Shown one piece after another: positions 30,117 to 32,249 of a stretch of 64,000 nt of DNA. The translations under genes and the position numbers were made by a program. This stretch comes from Dermatophagoides farinae. Taxonomy: Eukaryota; Arthropoda; Arachnida; Sarcoptiformes; Pyroglyphidae. Positions within the stretch are counted from its first letter, which is position 1. Each line of letters starts with the position of its first letter. The notes under the pieces are model-generated. The model searched no databases. It saw only the letters and a list, made by a program, of their open reading frames with translations, and was not told the DNA's origin. Where the stretch lies: assembly GCF_024713945.1 (NCBI RefSeq), contig NC_134686.1:1388001-1452000 (forward strand), written 5' to 3'.

Positions 30117-30125
30117 AGATTATTA
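30117..30125 (+). repeat. Target-site duplication, left copy (9 bp)
   Basis: AGATTATTA directly abuts the left end of the element. The identical 9-mer abuts the right end at 32241-32249. Confidence 0.85.
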
Positions 30126-30356
30126 GGTTGTAGGTCAAAATCCCGAAAACAAAAACCCCGAAAACCGAAACACCGAAACCAAATGACCGAAAAAAAATTA
30201 TCCCGAAAACAAAAACCCCGAAAACAAAAACCCCGAAAAAAAATTATCCCGAAAAAAAATTATCCCGAAAACAAAAACCCCGAAAAAAAATTACCCCGAA
30301 AACAAAAACCCCGAAAACAAAAACGTAGAAAATGGCTTGTTCCCTTAAACTTTAAA
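30126..30356 (+). repeat. Left terminal inverted repeat
   Basis: 231 bp. Both outer parts match the right repeat. The centre is an array of two short modules, A (CCCGAAAACAAAAAC, 15 nt) and B (CCCGAAAAAAAATTAT, 16 nt, with small variants), in the order B A A B B A B A A after the motif AAATGAC. The open frame across it (repeats of NPEKK/RKQKPRK type) is a translation artefact. Confidence 0.9.
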
Positions 30357-30379
30357 TGAACGGATTAACACTATTACTG

Positions 30380-31440
30380 TGAGAAATTTCATGTACCGGA
30401 TTCTACGAAAAGAAGTCATTAGATCTAGTTTATTCATCATACAATCACCACAAGTTTTAAATTTTAAATTAATATCTAGATATTCATGATGATATTTTTT
30501 AATTTGTTGTCAATAATCCATAGATTAAATGAAATTTCATTTTTTGTTATTTGGGCCACATTTTCTTCAAAATTTATCTTAAAACCGCCTTCAATCAATT
30601 TTCGAACAGATATCAAATTTGAACTGAAACCACCATAGGCCACATTTTTCAATTTGGTTTTGGTTCAATAACAACATTACCAATTTTTCTTTGATGTAAT
30701 TGTATTACCATTAGCCAATTCAAATTCAATCTGTTTATCTTCTTGATCCATAAGCAAATTTTTATCAATCGTTGTATGAGAAGTACATCCAGAATCAAGT
30801 ATCCAGATATCTGATAATTTTTCAGCACATTTCAACATCAACAATTTTGCAGCTTTCTTCTTATTTTTGTTATTTGATTTTGTGAAAATGATGAGCTAGA
30901 AGAAGATTTATCATTAGATGATGTTGATGGAGAAACTTCTGTTTTATTGGAATCAATTTTTCGTTTCGTCCAACATCCTTCAACTTTATGTCCAATTTTA
31001 TGGCAAAATGGGCATTTTATATTATTTTTAAACTTTTTCTTAAGATTGAGATTTGGCCTTTTCATCATATACAATGAATTCATTCATGATGGTGTTCATT
31101 GTACCATTCTGGTTCATCATAATTCGATCAGCCAATTGTTCTAATTTTGAATTTGATCGTAACATGCTCATAATAATAACGCAACGATGTTTATCAGTGT
31201 ACACGATTCTGATTCAATCGATTCAAATTTGATAATAACTGTTTCTAGCCTTGTTCTCAAAGAACTACTTTCATATGAACATTGGCTCGCTTCAGTAAAA
31301 TCAGCATTTCGAAGTTGTGGTTAATAGATCAATAGATTTCAAACTATGTTGTAAATTTTGAACCGGAATTTTAGTTTGTCTTTGCTCAATATCCATAATC
31401 GATGTGGTTATGATAATGTTCGGTTGCTAGCTTATATTGT
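30380..31440 (-). pseudogene. Decayed Ty1/copia gag-protease-pre-integrase fragment
   Basis: Read right to left, the domains come in copia order. About 31080-31440 is gag-like, with broken frames. At about 30973-31014 lies a CCHC zinc knuckle with C-x2-C-x4-H-x4-C spacing (CPFCHKIGHKVEGCW). At about 30770-30800 is the aspartic-protease core WILDSGCTSH, with DSG at 30788-30796. At 30476-30652 is the pre-integrase block (LKNVAYGGF...NLISVRKLIEGGF) ending in TAG, followed by CGDCMMNK near 30430-30460. Frames are interrupted by stops and shifts, with no reverse transcriptase, RNase H or LTRs, so it cannot be active. It lies wholly within the inverted repeats of the MULE-like element, which suggests capture by that element or nested insertion followed by decay. 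Confidence 0.75.
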
Positions 31441-31490
31441 GGACATTCTTCACAGAAAACTGAATAATTGACATTTAATTCAGAACTAGA

Positions 31491-31757
31491 CTAATTTTTC
31501 CTGTGTTGATTCCACCACAAACAATAAGCACAACTAAATAATTGACTAGATGAAGTGTATGTTCGTGATTCATGATTACCATGGCATTTTGAGCAGACTA
31601 GAGCATTTTTACATTTACAGGGGTTGGTCAGTAATTTTTTAAAAGTTTTGGTCAGTTGAAAATGATCGGTAAATATATCAATTTTGGTCAGTTTTTTATG
31701 TGAATGATCAGTTAATTTGAAAATAAATTGTCCGTTTTCAAACTTGAGGTGAAACAT
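31491..31757 (-). CDS. Cys-rich open frame inside the transposon, origin unknown
   Basis: 88 residues from ATG at 31757. The C-terminal half has clustered Cys/His (CKCKNALVCSKCHGNH and, later, FSCAYC) with zinc-ribbon-like spacing. The N-terminal half is ordinary in composition (FENGQFIFKLTDHSHKKL). It precedes the copia gag fragment in the same orientation. It may be a fragment of a captured host gene or of another element. I do not recognise it, and its transcription is uncertain. Confidence 0.3.
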   Translation of the reverse strand: MFHLKFENGQFIFKLTDHSHKKLTKIDIFTDHFQLTKTFKKLLTNPCKCKNALVCSKCHGNHESRTYTSSSQLFSCAYCLWWNQHRKN

Positions 31758-32009
31758 CCAAAATTACAAATTTCGCTCCAACACGATCTTTTTTGAGAAG
31801 GCAAATTGATGTCAATTTATCGTCAATACGATTCATTGACCGAATCAATTAGGATTCGAATTATATAATTTATATTACATTATATTATTATATTATTCAT
31901 TTATATTATATAATTATCACCATTTGTTCGTTTAAAATTGGAAATTTAAATCCAAATTTCACTTATTTATCCTTGATTCTATTCAGTTTGGTCGAATAAT
32001 TCTTTAAGC

Positions 32010-32240
32010 TTTAAAGTTTAAGGGAACAAGCCATTTTCTACGTTTTTGTTTTCGGGGTTTTTGTTTTCGGGGTAATTTTTTTTCGGGGTTTTTGTTTTCG
32101 GGGTTTTTGTTTTCGGGATAATTTTTTTTCGGGATAATTTTTTTTCGGGATAATTTTTTTTCGGGGTTTTTGTTTTCGGTCATTTGGTTTCGGTGTTTCG
32201 GTTTTCGGGGTTTTTGTTTTCGGGATTTTGACCTACAACC
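32010..32240 (-). repeat. Right terminal inverted repeat
   Basis: 231 bp, the same length as the left repeat. Read outward-in, its modules run A B B B A A B A A against B A A B B A B A A on the left: same module counts (5 A, 4 B), different order. Flanks on either side of the module array match the left copy. Confidence 0.9.
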
Positions 32241-32249
32241 AGATTATTA
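32241..32249 (+). repeat. Target-site duplication, right copy (9 bp)
   Basis: AGATTATTA, identical to 30117-30125. Confidence 0.85.

Follow-up and report, generated by a model that had tools for sequence, protein, structure and literature searches.

Structure of the Element

The window, which is the stretch of 64,000 nucleotides of Dermatophagoides farinae DNA analyzed here (C10:1388001-1452000), contains a 2,115-bp DNA transposon (30126-32240) bounded by long terminal inverted repeats (TIRs). A Nup160 nucleoporin gene is located elsewhere in the window on the minus strand (50144-54383), as well as a SET/MYND-domain frame (11411-12481), and scanning the window against Rfam at gathering thresholds gave no match. 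In the list of features below, element coordinates are window positions minus 30125. The window copy is denoted W, and the L-numbers denote other loci taken from the same genome.

30117..30125, no strand: left target-site duplication AGATTATTA, exactly matching the right one
30126..30356, plus strand: left TIR (A-end), composed of the tip GGTTGTAGGTCAAAA and 13 CCGAAA-bearing units; element 1-231
30357..30419, no strand: A-side subterminal sequence, the element's own, which also adjoins the TIR in L015 and L018; to element ~294
30420..31299, minus strand: copia fragment (gag zinc knuckle, D-S-G protease and start of the pre-integrase region) carrying no LTR; element 295-1174
31277..31281, no strand: GAACA, the empty site of a later copia LTR, uninterrupted in W and L018
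31386..31616, minus strand: LINE-like ORF1 (gag-like) fragment with CCHC knuckles, part 1; element 1261-1491
31619..31742, no strand: dispersed repeat piece inside the LINE-like fragment; element 1494-1617
31743..31807, minus strand: LINE-like ORF1 fragment, part 2; element 1618-1682
31879..32009, no strand: B-side subterminal sequence, the element's own, kept in L017 (95%) and partly in the relic L020 (75%)
32010..32240, minus strand: right TIR (B-end), built like the A-end, with 13 units; to element 2115
32241..32249, no strand: right target-site duplication AGATTATTA, exactly matching the left one

The preliminary description of this DNA reported perfect termini of 20 bp, equal inverted repeats of 231 bp and a perfect 9-bp duplication. 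These features were all recovered: the perfect match in fact covers the outermost 68 bp, the two TIRs show 97.8% identity over 231 aligned positions when gaps are disregarded, and the duplication is present at 30117-30125 and 32241-32249. When the whole window was searched for perfect inverted 16-mers 0.5-8 kb apart with an exact 9-bp direct repeat outside them, the only pair obtained was that of this element. The units of the A-end are mostly spaced 15-16 bp apart, the distances nearest the tip being 15, 7, 8, and 14 bp.

Distribution of the Family and Architecture of the Ends

The genome searched comprises 62,435,336 bases in 22 contigs, and all the whole-genome counts given here are lower bounds. 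The left repeat used as a query gave at least 27 matches, including its own locus, and 11 two-ended copies were found at 11 sites on seven contigs. The idea that the repeats might occur nowhere else, which the preliminary description gave as grounds for abandoning its reading, therefore does not hold; what it anticipated instead, namely copies with different duplications and different interiors, was found in the form of a multicopy MULE-like family with differing duplications and partly differing interiors. The target duplication is an exact 9-bp repeat in 10 of the 11 two-ended copies and an 8-bp repeat located within an A-run in the remaining one (L010). All 11 duplications differ from each other, and in a control consisting of mismatched flank pairs, none of the 110 pairs matched at nine positions out of nine. 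Chance or an assembly artefact, which nothing favors beyond the AT-rich, repetitive background, is already refuted by this control and by the presence of 11 copies on seven contigs, each with a duplication of its own.

When the outer 240 bp are aligned, the two TIRs of a copy are 74.8-98.9% identical in the part that aligns. The tip GGTTGTAGGTCAAAA is present at each of the 22 ends, with single changes in a few of them, and within the outer 260 bp each end carries from 2 to 14 CCGAAA units, mostly 15-16 bp apart. The ends consequently have the Foldback-type architecture, in which the TIRs are made of short tandem units of variable number. A degenerate pattern describing these ends (up to three mismatches) was found at 53 places in the genome, whereas its reversed control gave 25 matches. 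The matches with no mismatch or only one, also 25 in number, correspond to the 22 ends of the 11 pairs and to three one-ended relics (L019, L020, and L048), while the 28 matches with two or three mismatches are about as numerous as those of the reversed control. A census of the tip itself gave 33 matches (21 exact and 12 with one mismatch) versus six for the reversed control. Among the 12 one-mismatch matches, three were ends already known, eight lacked end units and were assigned to the background, and one was a diverged relic. The latter (L048 562; C8:1759161) is one-ended, has a variant tip and CGCGAAAAC units, and comes perhaps from an older sister family. The count of the family is probably complete as far as this end sequence is concerned, although the genome counts themselves are lower bounds.

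Composition of the Cargo in the Window Copy

The preliminary description recognized copia zinc-knuckle and DSG protease motifs on the minus strand, and both motifs were confirmed. The CCHC knuckle is located in the minus-strand frame 30838-31083, in which the only Pfam hit was a sub-threshold one to zf-C2H2_10, and the LDSG protease motif is located in the minus-strand frame 30677-30895, which matches Pol_BBD (E 6e-06) with a score of 26.9 bits, 0.1 under the cut-off of 27. The identification of the fragment as copia is confirmed by its match with an LTR copia element on C3 (C3:6852769-6857268), the two 183-bp LTRs of which are identical: the similarity amounts to about 70-80% at the DNA level (~70% over 830 bp) and up to 86% at the protein level. 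The copia homology may extend weakly past 31299 towards 31385.

The copia fragment is present as had been described, and it is not an intact nested LTR element, but it is not the only cargo. The other pieces consist of a gag-like ORF1 fragment showing 75-89% identity with its relatives at L027 and L028, which we take to be of LINE origin in view of its pattern of CCHC and ORF1 motifs (the 398-aa ORF of L027 gave no Pfam match), and of a dispersed repeat, which is 93% identical to copies at C10:1933721, C4:1054597, and C3:6846288 and less similar to those present elsewhere. A 104-bp deletion at the left edge of the dispersed repeat is private to W. All the coding pieces of the cargo have the same orientation, on the minus strand. 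The copia and LINE-like matches are separated by 86 bp. The LINE-like match begins abruptly at 31386, though L027 and L028 remain alike for ~170 bp further, and no copia LTR is present at this join, which is internal to both partners. The cargo of W is a mosaic in which copia sequence is combined with a LINE-like ORF1 piece and a dispersed repeat.

Foldback ends can mobilize the DNA lying between them, and a pair of neighboring ends might have moved a pre-existing patch of dead transposons wholesale (macrotransposition). Such an origin would fit the fact that, within a single element, the A-end and the B-end are less alike than the corresponding ends of close copies. It is nonetheless very unlikely: the genome search, within its limits of sensitivity, detected no copia-LINE patch and no copy of the same join outside the family, and the element's own subterminal sequence has been kept on both sides of the cargo.

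Copia reverse transcriptase (RVT_2) was detected in at least 45 stretches of the genome, 40 of which scored over the cut-off, 19 of these 40 being located in open frames of more than 1,200 residues. In the published repeat table of the D. farinae assembly, as given in the part of the source cited, the LTR items number eight and cover 370 bp in all (PMC11074847), which suggests that 19 or more copia elements having long open frames in the genome of this allergen-source mite are absent from the table.

Order of Events among the Copies

The copia cargo is common to eight copies (W, L009-L014, and L016), and since seven of them also carry the LINE-like piece, which has been lost from L010, the cargo predates their spread. 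The A-ends of these eight close copies are 99.1-100% identical, gaps aside. The interiors of L009, L011-L014, and L016 show 99.1-99.8% mutual identity, and that of W is 98.1-98.4% identical to them; the lower identity of the L010 interior is due to a replaced stretch. The copia piece is also shared by L018, but there it extends further into the integrase (rve, E 2e-04, under the cut-off), and L018 holds other inserts as well.

A copia LTR is present at the GAACA site in seven of the eight close copies, and GAACA is duplicated on both sides of it in six. In these six, the LTR consists of 131-133 bp between the two GAACA sequences, inside the gag fragment. In L010, a 318-bp LTR is followed by an apparent polypurine tract, and the far side has been lost. 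Since the site is empty in W and L018, the copia cargo is older than the LTR insertion: a different copia was inserted into the copia scrap already aboard, and the simplest reading is that the lineage of the window copy had split off earlier. According to the preliminary description, its reading would fail if relatives showed the copia part as an intact nested LTR element with a 5-bp duplication of its own. No such element was found in them; the LTR with its GAACA duplication is a later, separate event which is absent from the window copy. A nested intact copia was also rejected as the source of the copia part of W, which contains no LTR.

The LTR of L010 (1035-1418) is 185 bp longer than that of its relatives, and a 153-bp segment that overlaps this additional sequence shows 99% identity with C4:1242930-1243082. 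A derivation of the 133-bp form from the 318-bp form by internal deletion was rejected because the short form is contiguous elsewhere in the genome; the extra 185 bp look like an insertion.

Interiors of Other Copies

Copy L009 contains a 708-bp MITE flanked by TTAA (L009 2564-3271), located just inside the A-end; the TTAA duplication was checked in L009 only, and the site is empty in nine other copies. The 213-bp arm of this MITE occurs at 13 places in the genome, L009 included (short matches excluded), and two inverted arms occur at ten. Copy L017 carries a frameshifted piggyBac transposase (PF13843, 7.6e-26) which is cut off on the left and the right end of which abuts, at a TTAA, an arm belonging to this MITE family, the arm ending at the same place in the A-end as the L009 MITE, minus its last ~10 bp. 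Capture was set aside in the case of L017, since the right end of the piggyBac piece meets MITE sequence at TTAA, and this interior is better explained by nested insertion and internal deletion. The foreign DNA of L009, and most likely that of L017, entered by insertion at TTAA.

In L015, positions 792-1799 share 90.4% identity with a stretch of flanking DNA which begins 427 bp past the end of the element and with which they are collinear and in direct orientation. The edges of this copy in cis are flush, and a T-run is common to both sequences at the left join. Weak similarity to the flank (75-76% over 78-100 bp) is also seen in two further interior stretches. A comparison with 5.5 kb of the flank gave no TIR match, and for the 1.0-kb stretch as a whole, which is largely DNA without any named element, no further match was found in the genome beyond the element and its flank. 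Copy L015 may be regarded as the best direct sign of capture, its similarity being compatible with copying either from the flank into the element or in the reverse direction. Since nearby filler is the pattern of the animal Pack-TIRs described in the cited part of PMC8277862, of which 59.8% are intrachromosomal and 56.9% lie within 15 kb of the parental copy, L015 fits the filling of a gap from nearby DNA.

The copia and LINE-like pieces might, on the other hand, be ordinary nested insertions which subsequently lost their ends by internal deletion, capture being only apparent. Nested insertion with deletion does occur elsewhere in the family, as seen in the L009 MITE with its TTAA, the piggyBac-MITE join of L017, and the partly deleted copia of L010, and this counts against capture. 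Applied to the cargo of W, this alternative is rather unlikely: the two pieces have neither an LTR nor a LINE 3' end, their join is internal to both, and the cis copy of L015 has flush edges. With no more than 70-89% identity, the copia and LINE relatives found are too diverged for any microhomology to be read at the joins.

Three pieces of the family's copia cargo were also found within a CAACAA repeat at L039 3807-4000 (C7:1202306-1202499). They total 194 bp and are 100% identical to the cargo and in order, with two gaps, which makes this stretch look like filler DNA copied during break repair.

Search for a Transposase and Superfamily Assignment

The assignment to the Mutator-like elements made in the preliminary description is in keeping with the duplications, which at 9 bp (10 of the 11 copies) and 8 bp (one copy) fall within the 8-11 bp range typical of MULEs, and with the long, repeat-built TIRs (231 bp in W). 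The autonomous relative it suggested looking for, in which these ends would flank a MULE transposase, was not found, however: neither the tip census, nor the genome search with PF10551, nor that with the FLYWCH-bearing protein, nor the flanks of the single matching gene on C3 placed a transposase between matching ends in any family copy or same-ended relative, and no MULE domain was found within the elements. The single PF10551 match in the genome (C3:1397048) scored 26.5 bits, below the cut-off of 27.6. When run singly, this frame, which adjoins a FLYWCH finger, scored 27.8 bits, just above the cut-off, and no family tips were found in the 9.5 kb of sequence around the gene.

At L024 on C3, the FLYWCH and MULE-domain gene (644-1087 and 3893-4728) is partly duplicated 3.4 kb apart; only one further copy of this gene was found, which is partial and located nearby. 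The reverse-transcriptase frame between the two copies is presumably Pao-like.

As no transposase was found between matching ends, membership of the Mutator superfamily is based on structure. The family looks non-autonomous; either the element must have been mobilized in trans, or the partner it once had has been lost or has diverged. We would describe it as MULE-like by structure, possibly with a diverged autonomous partner. As no transposase was linked to its ends, the element might instead be a member of a different superfamily, or of an outgroup of the MULEs having duplications of 8-9 bp, for instance Merlin, P-like elements or Rehavkus. Foldback-type ends have arisen more than once, Galileo having a P transposase (PMC3169594, in the part cited), and the structure alone would also fit Rehavkus, which according to the cited part of PMC6446971 is related to MULEs (duplications of 8-11 bp), has 9-bp duplications and TIRs of 26-400 bp, and occurs in arthropods and annelids. 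The transposase characteristic of Rehavkus carries a PHD finger. We nevertheless consider an assignment of this kind improbable, because the exact 9-bp duplications and repeat-unit ends match those of Muta-type MULEs and the genome holds a FLYWCH and MULE-domain gene. Merlin (IS1016-like) identity was rejected, as its transposase domain PF12762 (DDE_Tnp_IS1595) had no match in the genome.

Comparison with Known Families

The following comparisons are limited to the parts of the papers cited. The Muta families (PMC5225508) resemble the mite family closely, having 8-9-bp duplications, long TIRs in which tandem subterminal units follow a terminal motif, a variable number of units, and heterogeneous interiors in their non-autonomous members. 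Muta1 of Aedes aegypti has a TIR of 145 bp containing nine 12-bp units with 3-4-bp spacers, which gives a period of 15-16 bp, and is flanked by duplications of 8-9 bp; its derivatives differ in their interiors and in how many units they carry, and the non-autonomous members of Muta include some with host gene fragments. The mite family differs in that its TIR is longer (231 bp and 13 units), in that the search revealed no autonomous member, and in that the identifiable part of its cargo consists of transposon pieces. The Tm1 Mutator/Foldback family of root-knot nematodes (PMC3169594) likewise has 9-bp duplications, composite TIRs with ~14-bp units of variable number, and non-autonomous members, but it has asymmetric 7-bp motifs outside the inverted repeat, whereas the tips of the mite family are symmetric, and it includes a member with a Phantom-like transposase, whereas none was found in the mite family.

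Like the Foldback element FB4 and its Ssk-FB4 Pack-TIR in Drosophila (PMC8277862), the mite family is a multicopy animal TIR element that carries foreign DNA and has spread by transposition; the Drosophila cargo is a host gene, whereas that of the mite consists of transposon scraps. As with plant Pack-MULEs, non-autonomous MULE ends surround foreign fragments; the latter are host gene fragments in plants, whereas in the mite, an animal host in which 11 copies were found, they are mainly retrotransposon fragments. Foreign fragments that are not nested elements, as in Pack-MULEs and Pack-TIRs, are present in W (internal join, no LTR) and in the cis copy of L015, whereas the L017 interior and the L009 MITE look nested. 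In the part of PMC8277862 cited, Pack-TIRs are defined by non-TE cargo, MULEs are said to be rare in animals and no Pack-MULE is reported in the 100 reference genomes; the named cargo of W is transposon-derived.

The preliminary description held that an element of this kind would be unusual in a mite. No paper on a MULE family of Dermatophagoides was found in the open-access PMC literature. Animal MULEs with heterogeneous interiors are known, and those with foreign interiors are not unprecedented, as attested by the Muta derivatives with host gene fragments in the cited part of PMC5225508. The kind of element is therefore already known; the mite family and the readable sequence of its states appear to be new, as far as searches of the open-access literature show.

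Proposed Origin of the Interiors

The explanation we favor, to which we give a probability of roughly 65%, is that the family is a non-autonomous Foldback-type MULE the interior of which was refilled by repair and spread to eight places, the copies being remodeled later on. A transposase supplied from elsewhere would cut and paste the repeat-built ends, transposition leaving the 9-bp duplications observed. A break inside the element would then lead to the loss of the interior and might be healed by synthesis switching templates onto other DNA. Repair of this kind would leave joined internal pieces such as those seen here, which come from copia, a LINE-like element and, in L015, the neighboring chromosome. 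The copia-carrying version then came to lie at the eight places where it is found, and single copies were remodeled by the later insertions and internal deletions described above.

It is also conceivable, though we suggest it tentatively and consider it rather doubtful, that the family is an animal counterpart of the Pack-MULEs which captures mostly transposons and nearby DNA by gap repair, the 15-16-bp end units serving as points of breakage and template switching.

Significance

With this family, a mite joins the animals in which Foldback-type MULE-like families are known, and it provides a clear animal example of a behavior best known from plants. One small, nearly complete genome shows the element in a succession of states, namely prior to the insertion of a copia LTR and following it, interrupted by a nested MITE, carrying the remnant of a piggyBac, and containing cargo that matches DNA 0.4 kb away. 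Since these states can be followed copy by copy, capture versus nested insertion becomes testable for each copy. If the family does prove to be a counterpart of the Pack-MULEs, the history of its capture events, its spread and the insertions that followed could be read from each copy.
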